Shown here: positions 4,848 through 56,767 of the stretch, in pieces
How the letters are laid out: every line of letters begins with the position of its first letter
How positions within the stretch are numbered: the first letter of the stretch is position 1
From: Scytonema millei VB511283
Lineage (GTDB): Bacteria; Cyanobacteriota; Cyanobacteriia; Cyanobacteriales; Chroococcidiopsidaceae
Direction of reading: 5' to 3'
Length of the DNA stretch: 64,000 nucleotides
Assembly (NCBI RefSeq): GCF_000817735.3
Contig: NZ_JTJC03000005.1
Span: 124,001-188,000, forward strand
The notes under the pieces: generated by a model
What the model saw: only the letters and a program-made list of their open reading frames with translations
What the model was told of the DNA's origin: nothing
The model's database searches: none
Position numbers and translations under genes: made by a program

Positions 4848-4910
4848 GTAGGGGCGGGTTCACCAGCATACTGCGTAACCAACAGAGATTTTAGGTAAAC
4901 CCGCCCGTAC
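4848..4910. repeat. GTAGGGGCGGGTT/AAACCCGCCC palindromic repeat
   Basis: This 63-bp element starts with GTAGGGGCGGGTT and ends with AAACCCGCCCGTAC, so its ends can pair. It lies between treZ and treY and belongs to the same family as the array beside the RAYT gene at 11.2-12.3 kb. Confidence 0.8.
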
Positions 4911-9448: not shown

Positions 9449-10954
9449 TTAGCGGCTATAAATTTGCGTCATTTCCAACAGGCGATCGCATATTTGAGCT
9501 GTCAGCATTTGGGAACTTTCGTATCGCCAGCGCCAGTTGCCTGCATTTACGCTGGGATCGTTCATCCGGGCGCGATCGTCTAAGCCTAGAATGTCTTGTA
9601 AGGGTAGAATAGCTAAGTCTGCAACTGAGGCTAATGCTAATTGAATGAATTTCCAATTAATTTCTGTTATCTCTGCAACAGATTTATAACCTAAATATTT
9701 CGCAACAAATTGCTTTTCTTTGTCGCTAGCTTTGTTCCACCACCCAATCGCGGTATCGTTGTCGTGAGTGCCGGGATAAACGACGCTATTACGAACGTAG
9801 TTGTGAGGTAAATAGGCATTACTTGAGTCGTCTCCAAAGGCAAATTGCAGAATTCTCATGCCCGGAAATTGAAAGCGATCGCGCAATTCTTCGACTTCTG
9901 GGGTAATAATGCCTAAGTCTTCTGCCATAATTGGCAAACTTCCCAAAGCATTACCCAAAGTTTCAAAAAATTCTACTCCTGGGGCTTTAATCCACTCGCC
10001 ATTAATTGCAGTCTCTTCGCCTGCTGGGACTTGCCAGTATGCTTCAAAACCGCGAAAATGATCGACGCGGACGATATCGACATATTCTAAAGTGGCTTGA
10101 AAGCGTTGAATCCACCAAGCAAAGTTTGTTTGTTGCAATTTATCCCAGTTATAGACAGGATTTCCCCATAATTGTCCCGTAGCACTGAAATAATCTGGGG
10201 GAACGCCAGCGATATATGTAGGTTCAAAAGTTTGGGGATCTAATTTAAATATTTCTGGACTCGACCAGACATCAGAACTGTTGTGACAAACATAAATTGA
10301 AATATCACCCACAATTTGAATGTTTTTGTCGTTGGCGTATTTTCGTAGTTGTTTCCACTGCTCGAAAAATTTAAATTGAACGAATTTATGATAGTTAATA
10401 CTCTCCTTTAGAGAGTTTCTTGCTGCTTCTAGTGCTGCTGGTTCTCGGCGGGCGATCGCTCGTTCCCAATTATTCCAGCTTTTCCCTTCGTTGGCTTCTA
10501 ATAATGACATAAAAAGTACGTAGTCATCGAGCCAGTAAGATTGAGATTGACAAAATTGTGCGTATTCGGGGTTTTGATGAGTATTAGCTTGTTGAAAGTT
10601 TTCAAAAGCGATTTTAAGAAATTTAGTTTTATGCGGAATGACGCGATCGAAGTTGACTCGATTGAAATCCACATTTTCTAATGGACTTAGTTCTTCTTTC
10701 TTCAACAACCCTTCTTCTGCTAGCGTATCGAGACTAATTAATAACGGATTGCCAGCAAAAGTGCTGAAATTCATGATATACGGAGAATGCTCGTATCCCG
10801 TGGGTCCCAAAGGCAAAACTTGCCACAATTTTTGTCCGCTACTGGCGAGAAAATCGATAAATTCGTAAGCTGATTTTCCTAAATCGCCAATTCCATGTGG
10901 GCTGGGAAGACAGGTAGGATGCAATAAAACGCCGCTAGCACGTTGGAATGTCAT
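9449..10954 (-). CDS. malQ: 4-alpha-glucanotransferase (amylomaltase, MalQ)
   Basis: MalQ transfers alpha-1,4-glucan segments between chains (disproportionation) and so adjusts chain length for TreY and phosphorylase. The 501-residue protein has the short bacterial/plastid-type GH77 architecture. GVLLHPTCLPSPHGIGDLG (residues 8-26) is the usual N-terminus. DIVRVDHFRGF contains the nucleophile Asp298, IMAEDLG the acid/base Glu345, and GTHDND the third acid Asp398. The start at 10954 puts the first motif at the expected place, although no good ribosome binding site precedes it. It is the first gene of the leftward set. Upstream lies one 83-bp REP-like element and then the divergent RAYT gene. 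Confidence 0.96.
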   Translation of the reverse strand: MTFQRASGVLLHPTCLPSPHGIGDLGKSAYEFIDFLASSGQKLWQVLPLGPTGYEHSPYIMNFSTFAGNPLLISLDTLAEEGLLKKEELSPLENVDFNRVNFDRVIPHKTKFLKIAFENFQQANTHQNPEYAQFCQSQSYWLDDYVLFMSLLEANEGKSWNNWERAIARREPAALEAARNSLKESINYHKFVQFKFFEQWKQLRKYANDKNIQIVGDISIYVCHNSSDVWSSPEIFKLDPQTFEPTYIAGVPPDYFSATGQLWGNPVYNWDKLQQTNFAWWIQRFQATLEYVDIVRVDHFRGFEAYWQVPAGEETAINGEWIKAPGVEFFETLGNALGSLPIMAEDLGIITPEVEELRDRFQFPGMRILQFAFGDDSSNAYLPHNYVRNSVVYPGTHDNDTAIGWWNKASDKEKQFVAKYLGYKSVAEITEINWKFIQLALASVADLAILPLQDILGLDDRARMNDPSVNAGNWRWRYESSQMLTAQICDRLLEMTQIYSR

Positions 10955-11032: not shown

Positions 11033-11115
11033 GTAGGGGCGGGTTTAGCAGATATGTCAACCACCATCACTAAAAATCTTCATCCAAAACCCTCCCAATC
11101 GCACCATTCCAGGTA
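11033..11115. repeat. REP-like element, left copy flanking the RAYT gene
   Basis: This 83-bp element begins GTAGGGGCGGGTTTAGCA, contains TCATCCAAAACCC and ends CCAGGTA. A second 83-bp copy in the same orientation lies at 11927-12009 with about 14 mismatches by eye. The two copies bracket the RAYT gene. In this left copy the AAAACCC arm has decayed, since CTCCC replaces CGCCC. Confidence 0.85.
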
Positions 11116-11191
11116 CAGTTGGTAGTGCGATCGCCAGTAGCCTACACAATTGGGGAATTCTAATAGATGTAGATATTAGGTTTTTCCCCTT

Positions 11192-11930
11192 GTGAAATAC
11201 GATCCAACCAAACACAATCGCCAATCAATTCGGTTGCAGAATTATAATTATTCCACTGCTGGCGCTTACTTTATCACTATATGTACCCATCAACGAGAAT
11301 GCCTATTTGGAGAAAGTTCTGAGGGAGTTATCCAACTGAATCGATTGGGTAAAATTGCGCGATCGCACTGGATGAATTTACCGAAATATCATTTAAATCT
11401 GTATCTAGATGCCTTTGTGGTTATGCCAAATCATCTGCATGGAATTTTAATTCTTCACGTTGACAAGGCGGGTTTTGACCCAAACATCTGCTATTACAAC
11501 CGAAATTCTATCTGGCGATCGCTTTGACAGGGCGGGTTTCGATCGAACATCTGCTACTACAACCGAAATTCTATCTGGCGATCGCTTTGACAGGGCGGGT
11601 TTCGATCGAACATCTGCTATTACAACCGAAATTTTATCTGCTAAACCCGCCCCTACAGAAATACCGGGTGTAGAATCTACCTGGGAAAATAATCGAAATC
11701 ACGCCAAATATCACGCTTTGCCGGAAATTATTCGCGGATTCAAAACATTTTCTGCCCATCAAATCAATAAAATCCGACGAGTATCAAAAATCCCAGTTTG
11801 GCAACGCAATTATTACGAACATATTATCCGCAACGAAGAATCATTAGAGCGAATTCGCCAATATATTGACAACAATCCCAGGTCATGGTTTACGGATCGA
11901 TTGCACCCAGGCAATCCCAACCACCTGTAG
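11192..11930 (+). pseudogene. REP-associated tyrosine transposase (RAYT), frameshifted by internal repeats
   Basis: This is a Y1-family HUH transposase of the RAYT (IS200-related) type, whose relatives cut and join REP palindromes. The first frame (GTG at 11192 to 11527) has YSTAGAYFITICTHQR and the HUH motif MPNHLHGILI. The second frame (to 11930) has WQRNYYEHIIR with the expected catalytic Tyr, and IRQYIDNNPRSW. The shift falls inside three 63-64-bp repeats at 11462-11651: unit 1 has 64 bp, so one extra base moves the frame, and units 2 and 3 are read as 21-residue repeats (DRAGFDRTSATTTEILSG type). The stop TAG at 11928-11930 is part of the following repeat. Both halves of the active site survive, so programmed frameshifting or very recent inactivation are possible; a pseudogene is the simplest call. 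Confidence 0.8.
11462..11657. repeat. Three tandem 63-64 bp units inside the RAYT gene, ending in an AAACCCGCC arm
   Basis: Units start at 11462, 11526 and 11589 with GACAAGGCGGGTT or GACAGGGCGGGTT and continue with AACATCTGCT.ACAACCG. After the third unit comes GCTAAACCCGCCCCTAC. The block therefore reads as a REP element whose left arm and loop were triplicated. It sits between the HUH and Tyr motifs. Confidence 0.85.
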
Positions 11931-12009
11931 GGGCGGGTTTAGCAAATATGCCAACAACCTCAACCGAAAATTTTCATCCAAAACCCGCCCCACCGCGCCA
12001 TCCCAGGTA
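11927..12009. repeat. REP-like element, right copy flanking the RAYT gene
   Basis: This 83-bp copy matches 11033-11115 in orientation and length. Its arms are intact: GTAGGGGCGGGTTT and AAAACCCGCCCC. The first bases supply the stop codon of the RAYT frame. Confidence 0.85.
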
Positions 12010-12034
12010 GGGTTCGCATTTGGCACGATCGCAA

Positions 12035-12264
12035 GGGCAGGTTTGACAAATTGATTTTTGGTTGTGGGAACGAATTTACAGGCAAAACCCGCCCCTACAG
12101 GAATTTCATTGGTGGTTGGGCGGGTTTGACAAATTGATTTTTGGTTATGGTCGTGAATTCTCGTTAAAAACCCGCCCCTACAGAAATTTCCTTGGTGGTT
12201 GGGCGGGTTTGACAAATTGATTTTTGGTTGTGGGAACGAATTTACAGGCAAAACCCGCCCCTAC
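12035..12264. repeat. Three tandem 83-bp REP units (64-bp hairpin plus 19-bp spacer)
   Basis: The 64-bp hairpin elements lie at 12035-12098, 12118-12181 and 12201-12264, exactly 83 bp apart. Each begins GGGC(G/A)GGTTTGACAAATTG and ends AAACCCGCCCCTAC. The 19-bp spacers carry TTTC.TTGGTGGTT. They fill the RAYT-treS gap (11931-12371), which holds no other gene. Any treS promoter would lie in the last 100 bp; I cannot assign one. Confidence 0.88.
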
Positions 12265-12371
12265 AAGAAACTCATCCCTATGCCTAAACTTCCCTCTCTG
12301 GGTACTTGTGGAAATCGCGCTAGACTCAATAACTTGAAACAGTGGTTTTTGGGAATACAACTAGCGAGAAC

Positions 12372-15300
12372 ATGCAGTACGTATTAAAAGATGACCCCCT
12401 TTGGTTCAAAGATGCCATTATCTACGAAGTGCCAGTACGCGCCTTTGCCGATAGTAATGCTGATGGAATTGGTGATTTTCGGGGGCTAACGGAAAAACTC
12501 GATTACCTCCAAGACTTAGGCGTTACCGCAGTTTGGATACTACCATTCTTTCCCTCACCACTCAGAGATGATGGCTACGATATAGCCGATTATAAGAATG
12601 TTAATTCAATTTACGGTAATTTAGACGATTTTCGCGAATTTTTGAAAGCCGCCCACCAACGTGGCATTCGCGTCATTATAGAATTGATCGTCAACCATAC
12701 TTCCGACCAACACCCTTGGTTTCAAAGAGCGAGACGTGCGCCTAAAGACAGTCCAGAACGAGATTTTTACGTTTGGAGTGACACGCCAGAGAAATACCAA
12801 GAAGCACGGATTATCTTCCAAGATTTTGAAACTTCTAATTGGGCTTGGGACCCAGTGGCTAAAGCTTACTACTGGCATCGTTTCTACTCTCACCAGCCCG
12901 ATATTAACTACGATAATCCAGCCGTGCGAGAAGCCGTGTTTGACGTGCTTGATTTTTGGTTGGGTATGGGTGTTGATGGGCTGCGGATGGATGCCGTACC
13001 TTATCTCTACGAACGGCAGGGAACGAACTGCGAAAATTTAGATGAAACTCATGTTTTCTTGAAACAACTCCGCCAGCAGGTAGATGCCAAATTTCCCAAC
13101 CGAATGCTGCTAGCCGAGGCAAATCAATGGCCTGAAGATGCAGCAGAATATTACGGGAATGGAGATGAGTGTCACATGAACTTCCATTTTCCGCTAATGC
13201 CGCGCTTGTTCATGTCGCTGCGGATGGAAGATAGCTTCCCGATTTTTGATATTTTGCAACAAACGCCAACAATTCCCGATAACTGTCAGTGGGCGCTATT
13301 TCTGCGAAATCACGACGAACTGACACTAGAAATGGTGACAGATGAAGATCGCGATTATATGTATCGAGTCTACGCCCGCGATCCAGCAATGCGGTTGAAT
13401 TTGGGAATTCGTCGCCGTCTCGCACCCCTACTTGGAAACGATCGCCGTCAAATTGAATTACTCAACAGCCTGTTACTCTCTCTTCCAGGCACTCCCGTAC
13501 TTTACTACGGCGATGAGATCGGCATGGGAGATAACGTATATATAGGCGATCGCAATGGCGTGCGGACACCGATGCAGTGGAGTTCCGATCGCAATGCTGG
13601 TTTCAGCCGCGCTAATCCGCAAAAGTTATACTCGCCCGTGATTGTTGACTCGGAATATCACTACGCCGCCATCAACGTTGAAGCACAACGGGCTAATACC
13701 AATTCTCTCTGGTATTGGATGAAACGCTTAATTGCCACCCGCAAGCGTTTCCAAGCCTTCGGACGCGGTAGTTTTGAATTATTGCACCCAGATAACCGCA
13801 AAGTGCTTACCTTTACGCGCACTTATCAAGGCGAACATATTCTAGTGGTGGCAAATCTGTCTCGCTTCGTGCAAACAGTGGAACTGGATTTATCAGCTTT
13901 TAAAGGCACGACTCCAGTAGAAATTTTTGGTCGCACGGAGTTTCCAGCGATTGGCGATACTCCTTACTTCTTTAGCATTAGCCCTTATGCCTTTTATTGG
14001 TTGAGTCTAGTTGCCAAGCCGAGCGAAATCCAGCCTGCTAGACCCCAAGCAGAGTTACCGACATTAGTTGTCAATAGCAAATGGCAAAATATCTTTGTTC
14101 AGCGGGATTTAAGAGTCAGACTAGAAGCTATACTGCCAGAATATCTGTCTACGTGTTCTTGGTTCAATCCGAAAACGCGGATAATTCAAGCCGTACAAAT
14201 CGCCGAAGTTGTTGCCATCCCCTACAAAAATACCGAAGCCAGAGCCGTTTGGTTGCAGGTAGATTACGTGCAGGGCGATCCAGAAACTTACTTGATGCTG
14301 CTGGCTTATGCCGAGGGAGAACAAGCAACACAGACTTTAACAGATAACCGCAGTGCGATCGTTGCTAATTTGTTGGTGCAAGGGAAAGATAAATTCGGTG
14401 TATTATTTGAAGCCACCGCAGATAAAAGTTTTCTTGCCTCGCTGATTGAGGCGATCGCCTGTCAGCGGCAGTATAAAGGTATGGCAGGGGAACTGATGGC
14501 AACTGCTACCGATCTCTATCCTCAAACGAGCAACAACGGTAAAAAACCCCTAGAACCGACTGTATTGAAGCAAGAACAGGGCAAGACTTTTATTGTCTAC
14601 GAGGGATTGGGTGCTAACGGTGCTAACCCCAACAACCATCTCGTTCTCAAACTCTTCCGCCAGCAAGAAGAAGGGATTAACCCAGATCTCGAAATTCGGC
14701 GCTTTTTGGGCGAGAAAAAACGCTTGCAACACTTTGCCCCATTAGTAGGAGCGATCGAATATCACCGCCCGTCAACAACACCAGTCACGGTAGGGATATT
14801 GCAAGAATACATCCGCGATACCCGCAGTGGTTGGGAATATACCCTCGATAGCCTGCGGGACTACTTTGAGTTAGTCACAACACAACATGCAGAAATGACT
14901 GAGATCCCCATACCTGGGGGAAATCTTCTCGATATGGGGAGTCGGGAGTCGGGAGTTGTAGGGGCAGGTTTATCGAGCCTACTTGCAATAGAACAAAAAA
15001 TTCAGCAGTTAAACCTGCCCGTACAGGAGTCAGTAGAGGCGGGTTTAGAAACCCGCCCGTACGGAACTCAGGAAGAAGAGTTCGAGCCATTTTCTTTGGC
15101 GAATCGAACCATCGGTTCTTATCTAGACAGCGCTCAAATTTTGGGACAATCGACAGCAGAACTACACATCGCCCTTGCTGCTAATGGCGACAATTCTGGA
15201 TTTACTCCAGAACCATTCTCGACATTTTACCAACGTTCCATTTACCAACAAGCTCGCAATCTCGCCGGACAAGTTTTAATCGCGCTCAGACAACGTTTAA

Positions 15301-15872
15301 AAACGCTGACACCGCACGCCCAAGAATTAGCTCAAGATGTCCTGAATCGCCAAGAGCAAATCATGGAGCGCTTTGGGTTGATCCTCAACCAAAAAATTAC
15401 TGCTATGCGGACTCGCTGTCATGGCGATTATCATTTGGGACAAGTACTTTATACAGGTAAAGACTTCATCATCTCCGATTTTGAAGGAGAATCGGGACGC
15501 AGTTTAAGCGATCGCCGCATTAAACGCTCTCCTTTGCGCGATGTTGCCAATATGTTGCAGTCTTTCCATTACGCTGCTAACGTCGGGCTGCACAACGAAA
15601 TCGAAAGCGGGATGCTTCGTACAGAGAACTTACCCATCATGCAGCAGTGGGCGCAGTTTTGGTCTACCTGCGTCGGTGCGGCTTTCCTCAATTCATATCT
15701 CGCGATCGCTTCTCAAGACTCTTTCTTACCCAAAACCAAGACTGAGTTACAAGTTCTGCTGGATGCTTACCTCTTAGAAAAAGCAATCCACGGCTTGGGC
15801 TACGATCTCAATTCCCGTCTCGACTGGGTAGAGATTACCTTGGGGCGGATTTTGCAGCTGTTGGATACTTGA
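12372..15872 (+). CDS. treS: Trehalose synthase (maltose alpha-D-glucosyltransferase) fused to maltokinase
   Basis: The N-terminal GH13_16 part interconverts maltose and trehalose; the C-terminal part should phosphorylate maltose with ATP to maltose-1-phosphate, the donor of the GlgE pathway in other bacteria. I place the start at the ATG at 12372 (MQYVLKDDPLWFKDAIIYEV), giving 1166 residues; the frame extends ten codons further upstream. The catalytic residues are Asp207 in DGLRMDAVPY, Glu249 in LLAEANQW and Asp315 in RNHDEL. The kinase shows CHGDYHLGQV near residue 1018 and ISDFEGE near 1037. Residues about 855-900 (SRESGVVGAG to LETRPYGTQ) are encoded by GGGAGTC repeats and two REP-like palindromes and interrupt the kinase part without breaking the frame. 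No glgE is in the window. Confidence 0.95.
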   Translation: MQYVLKDDPLWFKDAIIYEVPVRAFADSNADGIGDFRGLTEKLDYLQDLGVTAVWILPFFPSPLRDDGYDIADYKNVNSIYGNLDDFREFLKAAHQRGIRVIIELIVNHTSDQHPWFQRARRAPKDSPERDFYVWSDTPEKYQEARIIFQDFETSNWAWDPVAKAYYWHRFYSHQPDINYDNPAVREAVFDVLDFWLGMGVDGLRMDAVPYLYERQGTNCENLDETHVFLKQLRQQVDAKFPNRMLLAEANQWPEDAAEYYGNGDECHMNFHFPLMPRLFMSLRMEDSFPIFDILQQTPTIPDNCQWALFLRNHDELTLEMVTDEDRDYMYRVYARDPAMRLNLGIRRRLAPLLGNDRRQIELLNSLLLSLPGTPVLYYGDEIGMGDNVYIGDRNGVRTPMQWSSDRNAGFSRANPQKLYSPVIVDSEYHYAAINVEAQRANTNSLWYWMKRLIATRKRFQAFGRGSFELLHPDNRKVLTFTRTYQGEHILVVANLSRFVQTVELDLSAFKGTTPVEIFGRTEFPAIGDTPYFFSISPYAFYWLSLVAKPSEIQPARPQAELPTLVVNSKWQNIFVQRDLRVRLEAILPEYLSTCSWFNPKTRIIQAVQIAEVVAIPYKNTEARAVWLQVDYVQGDPETYLMLLAYAEGEQATQTLTDNRSAIVANLLVQGKDKFGVLFEATADKSFLASLIEAIACQRQYKGMAGELMATATDLYPQTSNNGKKPLEPTVLKQEQGKTFIVYEGLGANGANPNNHLVLKLFRQQEEGINPDLEIRRFLGEKKRLQHFAPLVGAIEYHRPSTTPVTVGILQEYIRDTRSGWEYTLDSLRDYFELVTTQHAEMTEIPIPGGNLLDMGSRESGVVGAGLSSLLAIEQKIQQLNLPVQESVEAGLETRPYGTQEEEFEPFSLANRTIGSYLDSAQILGQSTAELHIALAANGDNSGFTPEPFSTFYQRSIYQQARNLAGQVLIALRQRLKTLTPHAQELAQDVLNRQEQIMERFGLILNQKITAMRTRCHGDYHLGQVLYTGKDFIISDFEGESGRSLSDRRIKRSPLRDVANMLQSFHYAANVGLHNEIESGMLRTENLPIMQQWAQFWSTCVGAAFLNSYLAIASQDSFLPKTKTELQVLLDAYLLEKAIHGLGYDLNSRLDWVEITLGRILQLLDT
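14938..15062. repeat. GGGAGTC tract and two REP-like palindromes inside treS
   Basis: A GGGAGTC heptamer tract (about 14938-14957) is followed by a 67-bp palindromic element (14958-15024, GTAGGGGCAGGTTT to AAACCTGCCCGTAC) and a 30-bp one (15033-15062, GTAGAGGCGGGTTT to AAACCCGCCCGTAC). In the first, both arms carry the same compensating change (GCAGG with CCTGC). The reading frame of treS stays open throughout. Confidence 0.88.
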
Positions 15873-16220
15873 GGTTTTTTCTAGCAATTCCTGTAGTAGG
15901 GGCGCACAGCTGTGCGCCCCTACTAGTTGCTGAATTATCCGCTCGATTTCCATTAGTGCATCTCTACTGCAAATAAAAATTGATAAAACTTGATATTAAT
16001 TTTTTAAAGAAAGACGCTTCACGCGGCTTTTGATAGATTTTTAATGTAAAATCATCGCAATCTCAGCCCTGCGGTCGTTGCTCGAAGAATAATCTTATCG
16101 GGCGATCGCAATCGATGACAGGAGCGTAAATGCTGCTACGACTACACTTAGGTGGCGATCGCTAACATCATACAAATACTAAGTATCACAACAAACAAGC
16201 TATAAAAATCTATAAGTTAT
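15873..16220. other. Gene-free 348 bp after treS with a perfect palindrome
   Basis: A perfect 32-bp palindrome spans 15894-15925 (core GGGGCGCACAGCTGTGCGCC), with partly paired flanks AGCAA and TTGCT outside it. No U-run follows, so it is a weak terminator candidate. The rest is AT-rich with HIP1 sites. GACGCTTCACGCGGC near 16012 is another short repeat-like piece. No gene was seen. Confidence 0.7.
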
Positions 16221-18587: not shown

Positions 18588-18815
18588 TCAGTTGTCAGTT
18601 ATCAGTTATCAGTTATCAGTTATCAGTGAAGAAACGGTGTAGGGTGTAGTGAGTGGCTGGTGGCTAGTGGCTAGTAAATAGGGTGTGGGGTGTAGTGAAT
18701 TGTTAACTGGTCACTGGTCACTGGTCACTGGTTACTGGTTACTGCTCCCGACTCCCGGCTCTTGTACGGGCGGGTTTGGAAACCCGCCCCTACCGACTCC
18801 CTAATTCTTCCCGAT
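18588..18815. repeat. Short tandem repeats and a 30-bp REP-like palindrome
   Basis: AGTTATC heptamers follow the stop codon at 18590-18625. GTGGCTAGTGG and CACTGGT units occupy about 18650-18745. A minimal GTACGGGCGGGTTTGG/AAACCCGCCCCTAC palindrome lies at 18764-18793. The region separates two convergent genes. Confidence 0.8.
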
Positions 18816-24004: not shown

Positions 24005-24216
24005 GTTACATATAGCGATTCTTATTATGGTATACATTCGTAGGAGCGCATAGCTGTGCGCCCCTACAGATCTTTATCTCAGCCAATTGAAAAAGGCTAG
24101 AACACAGACGTACAGCGTTACCTCTCTCTAGAATTATACGCGCTTTATAATTTCGCTAAAACTTTCAGAATTTTCTCAGTAAAACCACATAAATTTGTTT
24201 GTGAAATCTTCAGCAT
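24005..24216. other. Gene-free stretch with a 28-bp palindrome
   Basis: At 24040-24067 lies GTAGGAGCGCATAGCTGTGC followed by GCCCCTAC, a near-perfect copy of the palindrome at 15896-15923. The rest is AT-rich and shows no gene. With the terminator before it and the promoter-like element after it, the whole gap 23917-24297 is 381 bp. Confidence 0.7.
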
Positions 24217-56732: not shown

Positions 56733-56767
56733 TCTAGAGACGTTACAAGTAACGTCTCTATAAAAAA

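Follow-up and report, generated by a model that had tools for sequence, protein, structure and literature searches.

The window analysed here is a 64-kb stretch of DNA (C5:124001-188000 of genome G000, which comprises 5.97 Mb in 17 contigs), and the locus of interest lies in it between a 4-alpha-glucanotransferase gene (9449-10954, minus strand) and an alpha-amylase/maltokinase-type gene (12342-15872, plus strand). Two direct REP-like copies of 88 nt, 894 nt apart on the plus strand and 82% identical in a repeat search of the window (the original prediction had put this at ~83%), bracket a RAYT gene. The upstream copy (11033-11120) has its GTAG foot at 11033-11036, an intact left arm and a degenerate right arm (AAAACCCTCCC), and the downstream copy (11927-12014) has both arms intact. 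GTAGGGGCGGGTTT opens both copies, and the likeness between them extends past the element ends. Because their feet are degenerate, the window's own copies were missed by a stricter palindrome finder.

The gene is divided into an N-terminal half (11192-11527, plus strand, GTG start) with the HUH motif NHLH at 11429-11440, and a C-terminal half (11460-11930, plus strand, another frame) with WQRNYYEHIIR at 11799-11831 and the tyrosine motif YIDNNP at 11862-11879; the TAG in the GTAG foot of the downstream copy serves as the stop codon of this half. The two halves match the NCBIfam family REP_Tyr_transpos (NF047646) with E-values of 1.3e-7 and 1.6e-9 (31.6 and 37.8 bits, against a curated cut-off of 80). 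The frame is lost within the first of three tandem 63-bp internal copies of the element (11466-11528, 11529-11591 and 11592-11654, plus strand), which occupy the linker between the HUH and tyrosine motifs; the sole internal copy having both arms (11594-11656) lies on the minus strand, with its GTAG foot on that strand. Three further long elements form a downstream array (12035-12275, minus strand) with an 83-bp period and CTAC, the minus-strand GTAG, at their right ends. The original prediction had described the flanks and both RAYT motifs correctly, but had overlooked the frameshift that splits the motifs, the internal copies and the downstream array.

Because NHLH and the tyrosine motif fall in different frames, we regard the window RAYT as broken, although the shift by 1 nt may stem from faulty assembly. 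A programmed frameshift that would rescue the gene was rejected by reasoning from the letters, as the heptamer CCCAAAC would shift in the wrong direction. The locus was likewise rejected as an IS200/IS605 element, as its tyrosine motif is YIDNNP rather than YxxxQ and the genome holds no near-identical second copy.

The genus is represented in our collection by three genomes, G000 (the window), G186 and G148. At the syntenic site of G186, where the surrounding DNA is 91-96% identical, the RAYT is intact at 206 codons, with the HUH motif and single catalytic tyrosine in one frame where the window gene has them in two. It carries one in-frame internal element, reading ...RAGFDRTSATTTEILSAKPAPTEIPG..., at the same site as the window's three copies. 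Therefore, on a comparison of the letters by eye, the window gene would have decayed by internal tandem growth and a 1-nt shift in the first copy. A structure prediction for the G186 protein (mean pLDDT 72; linker residues 94-117 below 50 and predicted disordered) finds its best match in 4er8, a solved RAYT with its REP hairpin (E 1.8e-5, TM 0.52 by target), and sequence similarity to 4er8 is weak (E 0.12). A motif alignment to 4er8 places in WQRNYYEHIIR counterparts of W94, Q95, E100, H101 and R104, which the available part of Quentin et al. 2018 (PMC6006769) links to GTAG reading in the E. coli enzyme.

Further copies of the element lie elsewhere in the window, where 12 of the 17 GGCGGGTTT/AAACCCGCC 9-mers fall within 11038-12259. 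A dispersed long element, GTAGGGGCGGGTTC...AAACCCGCCCGTAC (4848-4910, plus strand), stands between two ORFs, and a window scan placed a dispersed short element, GTACGGGCGGGTTTGGAAACCCGCCCCTAC, at 18764-18793 on the minus strand. Inside the maltokinase-type ORF, a long element of the GGCAGGTTT variant (14958-15024, plus strand) is followed by a short element with a 2-nt spacer (15033-15062, plus strand). Together these two GG elements cover 105 nt (35 codons) with the ORF unbroken, in a stretch common to G186 (96% identical block), and in a PDB comparison the element region sits in an unaligned stretch of the protein; judged from its letters, 14958-15062 is likely an in-frame REP insertion. Across G000 the strict element, defined as GGGCGGGTTT-N20..50-AAACCCGCCC, occurs 156 times in 5.97 Mb against 0 for the reversed pattern that served as control, and tandem clusters are found elsewhere in the genome too. 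A side observation of this kind comes from another genome, where 14 GG elements form a tandem array with a period of ~208 bp (G200:C1:4229456-4232214) and the RAYT match lies a long way from the array (C1:6061692).

One RAYT clade and its palindrome

The genus holds other RAYTs with other palindromes. G148 has a related GG-type RAYT at another site, with GGCGGGTTC/T palindromes on either side of it and within it. The intact RAYT L025 (G000) is accompanied in both flanks and internally by GTAGGGGCGCACAGCTGTGCGCCCCTAC or a form of it with one base changed; L026 (G000), a RAYT remnant, has a GAGACGTTG-type palindrome alongside; and L096, a G148 RAYT whose neighbour is of the same kind as that of L026, has GAGACGTTG-type palindromes in both flanks and internally. 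RAYT paralogs within the genus thus go with palindromes other than GG (arm types GCACAGCTGTGC and GACGTTGCAACGTC), giving three RAYT-palindrome pairs in one genus, and all three palindrome types are also found elsewhere in the 64-kb window. Exact and variant copies of the L025 palindrome lie at 15896-15923 and 24040-24067, and a GAGACGTT-type palindrome at 56734-56761 resembles those beside L026 and L096. A separate repeat, the octamer GCGATCGC, known as HIP1, has 106 copies in the window against ~0.6 expected from base composition.

For the survey of the order we searched with the window's own N-terminal half (91 aa), because NF047646 favours other RAYT types: its best matches were such types, with the GG motif at 0 of 30 loci. 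The query matched 159 of 291 order genomes at 1e-8, and a plasmid search gave 3 distant records. The 136 RAYT loci examined (3 from G000, the 29 best matches elsewhere, 4 supplied by the genus search and 100 further listed matches) were scored as GG-flanked where GGCGGGTTT or AAACCCGCC occurred within 500 nt of the RAYT; the motif stood on both sides of 26, on one side of 14 and on neither side of 96. On a tree of 131 RAYTs, built with flank data unused and with five loci left out for missing halves or a linker longer than 400 nt, the 40 GG-flanked loci form a single clade (bootstrap 93, SH-aLRT 96). The expectation that other RAYTs would have the same flanks is thereby borne out for 40 of the 136 loci, as one clade of the 131. 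The GG trait requires 1 change on this tree against a shuffled mean of 34.5 (0 of 500 shuffles as low), and 94% of 200 bootstrap trees likewise need a single change.

The 40 loci fall into 26 context groups without common coding DNA (tblastx of masked fetched flanks, whose shortness may hide some common sites), and therefore common neighbouring DNA fails to explain the one-clade pattern. The 37 genomes with a GG RAYT hold 18 additional RAYT loci classed by absence of the motif, for which only tree position counts as evidence, and 15 of the 15 placeable ones lie outside the GG clade. The GG motif is present at 0 of the eight IS200-like loci of G000. Among element-poor genomes (no more than 13 strict copies together with a GG-flanked RAYT; 12 of 13 such genomes used, judged from listed positions), 4 of 12 have a strict element 500 nt or less from the RAYT, where 0.02 was expected (Poisson P 6e-9). 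Since relatives of the broken gene have the same palindrome, the enzyme family probably recognises it; the original prediction that this palindrome family is the likely RAYT substrate gains support from the tree and the flanks.

Palindromes inside the genes tend to match those in the flanks. A finder for 13-nt arms, which also called some false arms (GAAG and TTAG types, retained in the 62- and 40-locus tests below), reported an internal palindrome in 41 of 131 order loci and, among the matches listed, 61 of 80 cross-phylum loci. Internal and flanking arms differ by a mean of 1.31 bases against 3.99 when permuted (62 loci with both, among the matches listed), and after collapsing at 60% identity they are identical in 27 of 40 loci (permuted 7%, maximum 20% in 5000). 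The GG 9-mer itself is found in the linker of 6 of the 40 GG order loci and is absent from 34; therefore, the internal copy is unnecessary.

A profile scan of genome contigs extended the comparison to at least 80 cross-phylum loci. In a 211-row tree made by a quick method from the order loci and the matches listed, the enclosing clade numbers 66 (SH-aLRT 97), and 60 of its 66 loci, among the matches listed, have the exact 9-mer within 500 nt, that of L268 standing outside a palindrome. The members without it comprise L300, with one base changed, and five with further variants, such as GTAGGCGCGGGTTTCAAACCCGCGCCTAC in L281. Outside the clade the 9-mer occurs at 5 of 145 loci, in palindromes at L284 and L303, in an imperfect palindrome at L295 and alone at L290 and L319. 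Tree labels in the clade include Chloroflexota, Planctomycetota, Pseudomonadota, Bacteroidota and Thermodesulfobacteriota, and record titles add Gemmatimonadota and Glassbacteria; any single non-cyanobacterial placement may be a mis-binned contig, because most are metagenome bins. A nearby clade of 12, among the matches listed, contains Nitrospirota, Myxococcota, Planctomycetota, Chloroflexota and cyanobacteria among others, with GTAGGGGCGGTTC arms as the internal copy in 6 of 12 and GATTC, GTTTC, GGGTC or GCGTC arms in others, and therefore the agreement between arm and clade looks looser there.

Arms, interior and foot of the element

Within the clade of 66, the 46 cyanobacterial loci (40 order-survey loci and, among the matches listed, 6 scan loci) form one subclade (99). 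Of its 40 order loci, 38 have the long form and 0 the short form in the fetched DNA, and the 6 scan loci are labelled long. The non-cyanobacterial members mostly have GTAGGGGCGGGTTT-N-AAACCCGCCCCTAC, in which these arms enclose 1-2 nt. Within the order the short GG form is rare, being found in 16 of 291 genomes, among them all three of the genus (12, 19 and 25 copies). In the non-cyanobacterial genomes sampled, 7 of 15 with a GG-short RAYT contain the exact short form, as do 1 of 5 with variant arms and 4 of 7 with other types; these counts separate RAYT types poorly, perhaps because only one RAYT per genome is known.

Because the strict pattern itself fixes the arms, conservation was retested on 140 windows chosen by their left arm only. 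At up to 3 mismatches, the right arm was present in 119 of 140 (2 of 140 when shuffled), and the interior measured 34-41 nt in 93, 1-2 nt in 23 and another length in 3. Pairwise identity was 0.34 in the interior against 0.80 in the right arm, and a faint inner symmetry places TT and AA ten bases inward of each arm. A conserved folded interior was rejected, the signal being weak only (z -0.52; 48 own-genome elements, 41 after near-duplicate removal), and among 67 non-redundant elements folding is barely above shuffled (z -0.36).

Exactly one exact GTAG foot marks 128 of the 145 elements from the order, 20 of the 22 from G000 itself, 9 of the 12 from the genus and 3 of 3 other long elements, in a sample of RAYT-adjacent loci, 15 own loci and the window rather than of whole genomes. 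A double-foot REP (GT[AG]G at both ends) was rejected as the label for the genome's own element, as GTAG/GTAG occurs in 0 of 22 long elements, 8 of which have GTAG/GTAC; of the 145 elements from the order, 5 have GTAG at both ends and a further 37 are GTAG/GTGG, so that the double-foot form is the minority. As a separate observation, the palindromes called at L069, L072, L108 and L115 (internal) and in the flank of L105 begin with GAAGCATT, lack GTAG and measure 57-59 nt; the first four loci are possibly a subclade with a different foot.

These structural data bear on the possibility that the palindromes are regulatory RNA hairpins, acting as attenuators or translation blocks of RAYT expression, with dispersal secondary. 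A hairpin could act at the places that copies occupy, namely just ahead of the start codon, within the reading frame and at its stop, and the available part of Di Nocera et al. 2013 (PMC3733652) suggests down-regulation of RAYTs by REP hairpins. However, hundreds of copies lie elsewhere in several genomes, the mostly single-sided GTAG foot answers a need of a nuclease rather than of a hairpin, and the interior folds barely better than shuffled sequence. We consider this explanation unlikely, though it fares best among the alternatives to recognition by the RAYT.

Copy number, mobilisation and mechanism

Strict elements occur in 93 of 291 order genomes, with 0 in all by the reversed-pattern control. 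They are present in 37 of 37 GG-RAYT genomes (median 28) and in 16 of 66 genomes whose typed RAYTs were all of other types (Mann-Whitney P 3e-13; counts include copies at the RAYT itself), and 40 of the 188 untyped genomes hold them. A profile built from 15 proteins was run against all 36 genomes that have at least 5 strict copies but lack a typed GG RAYT, and it matched at 1e-15 in 17. A full motif-bearing gene was found only in G141, and a C-terminal remnant (L222) beside the motif in G215, so that a GG-flanked RAYT was not found in 34 of the 36 by this search. Three of the four richest genomes are among those without a detected GG RAYT (G257, G165 and G178, with 518, 335 and 288 strict copies), as is the single-contig genome G033 with 23 copies. 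Fragmented assemblies may explain some of the missing GG RAYTs, as repeats would break draft assemblies right at RAYT loci, but not G033 and hardly G032 (~90 contigs). RAYT loss leaving elements behind would fit, by analogy, the Pseudomonas model in the available text of Nunvar et al. 2013 (PMC3686654).

The check named in the original prediction, whether abundance follows this RAYT type, came out mixed, holding for the 37 GG-RAYT genomes and failing for three of the four richest ones. The prediction's further suggestion that the RAYT could explain the spread of the element survives in part, copy number partly following the RAYT, whereas the window copy is broken and therefore cannot drive present-day spread. 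Another nuclease, or an unrelated RAYT subclass, might mobilise the element where the GG RAYT is absent, the GG RAYT only sharing its sequence. The high copy numbers of G257, G165 and G178 favour this, but in the fetched DNA of 11 such genomes the GG motif was found at 0 of 30 RAYT-like loci (of 73 matches in all), and we hold it to be a shade less likely than a regulatory role. Less likely again is that the whole REPtron moves as a unit bracketed by direct copies, in the manner of an insertion sequence: the 26 context groups of GG RAYTs and the likeness of the 5-prime and 3-prime copies beyond the element speak for it, but no genus genome holds a near-identical second REPtron copy, whereas the genome's own IS200-like genes comprise two sets of same-scoring copies. 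That the palindrome is merely common and adjoins RAYTs by chance or a common intergenic site preference, as its 156 strict copies and tandem clusters might suggest, is hardly credible given the one-clade pattern, the elements at RAYTs of element-poor genomes, the 0 of 8 in the IS200 control and the 15 motif-free RAYTs outside the clade.

We therefore favour, with a probability of about 0.85, reading the window locus as a decayed REPtron, in which a subclass 2.4-type HUH/tyrosine RAYT lies among its cognate GTAG-footed REP hairpins. Such a REP would have GGGCGGGTTT/AAACCCGCCC as its arms, which in cyanobacteria enclose an interior of 34-41 nt. According to the available account of published assays (PMC8266576), RAYTs cut single-stranded REPs beside the hairpin, and GTAG matters for binding or cut choice, with stem and loop roles varying by group. 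It is plausible that the RAYT recognises the GTAG foot and the GGGCGGGTTT arm stem on a single DNA strand, cleaves there and disperses copies, with the interior contributing little beyond a spacer in sequence and the rest of the hairpin being filler. A REP in or beside the gene would be the nearest target for newly made protein, as is proposed for REPs in the flanks in the available text of PMC3686654. Since its own RAYT broke, the G000 family may be a relic or may be mobilised from elsewhere.

More tentatively, at slightly under even odds, we propose that the clade sets a near-fixed arm password across phyla, that the interior is free and was expanded once in cyanobacteria from 1-2 to 34-41 nt, its length being kept and its sequence not, and that the copy in the linker of many of these genes keeps enzyme and substrate together through horizontal transfer, such a gene bringing along the key that it recognises.

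Relation to known REP systems and meaning

The locus fits a known class, the REPtrons of TnpA-REP subclass 2.4 (RAYT group 4), for which the available part of Quentin et al. 2018 (PMC6006769) gives NH[IFV]H, WQ and YIxNNP motifs and ~194 aa. By sequence motifs, WQ and YIDNNP match and the G186 protein has 206 aa; one HUH residue is off the published motif, being L where I, F or V is published, and other clade members have I, V, F or L there. Cyanobacterial abundance, GTAG-footed long REPs in the flanks and an in-frame REP between HUH and Y, as in G186, are further likenesses to that published description, and GT[AG]G-footed REPs in flanks, repeated genome-wide, are both features seen here. Compared with the same text, the window differs in its broken gene with three internal copies, its 34-41-nt interior, its mostly single exact GTAG foot and in arms tied to the protein clade across phyla.

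The GTAG-tagged families in the available part of PMC3733652 resemble the element in their GTAG foot, 6-13-bp stems, dimers and clusters, REPs inside genes and repeat-specific REPtrons. The loops described there are mostly very short, with 9-15 nt in GTAG-15 and up to 27 in one Bradyrhizobium type, in contrast to 34-41 here; the element may be identical with one of the cyanobacterial families GTAG-12, -15 and -16. The Pseudomonas and Stenotrophomonas system of PMC3686654, in its available text, shares the dependence of REP abundance on a cognate RAYT, RAYT loss, pseudogenes and REPs without their RAYT, but concerns two bacterial groups, whereas here one arm sequence is kept across phyla. With IS200/IS605 the locus shares a predicted HUH-Y1 fold and, probably, hairpin binding, but it has RAYT motifs and free-standing palindromes, and the genome's eight own IS200-like loci are motif-free. 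A literature search by element letters, covering running text rather than figures and supplements, found none with GGGGCGGGTTT among the matches listed. The long-loop element and its cross-phylum arms look new, although the element may already have been published.

These findings bear on the way in which RAYTs acquire specificity for a single REP and on how this preference shifts. The match between protein and palindrome across phyla is unusually clean, and the subclass offers many natural pairs on one scaffold, whose arms differ at few positions after a mostly common GTAGGGGC, with GGGTTT, GCACAGC, GAACG, GGTTCG and others following it. These natural pairs would give a direct route to the recognition code, via exchange of arms or HUH domains. 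The long loop, with its length kept but hardly its sequence, is unusual for a REP and raises the question of what the enzyme measures.
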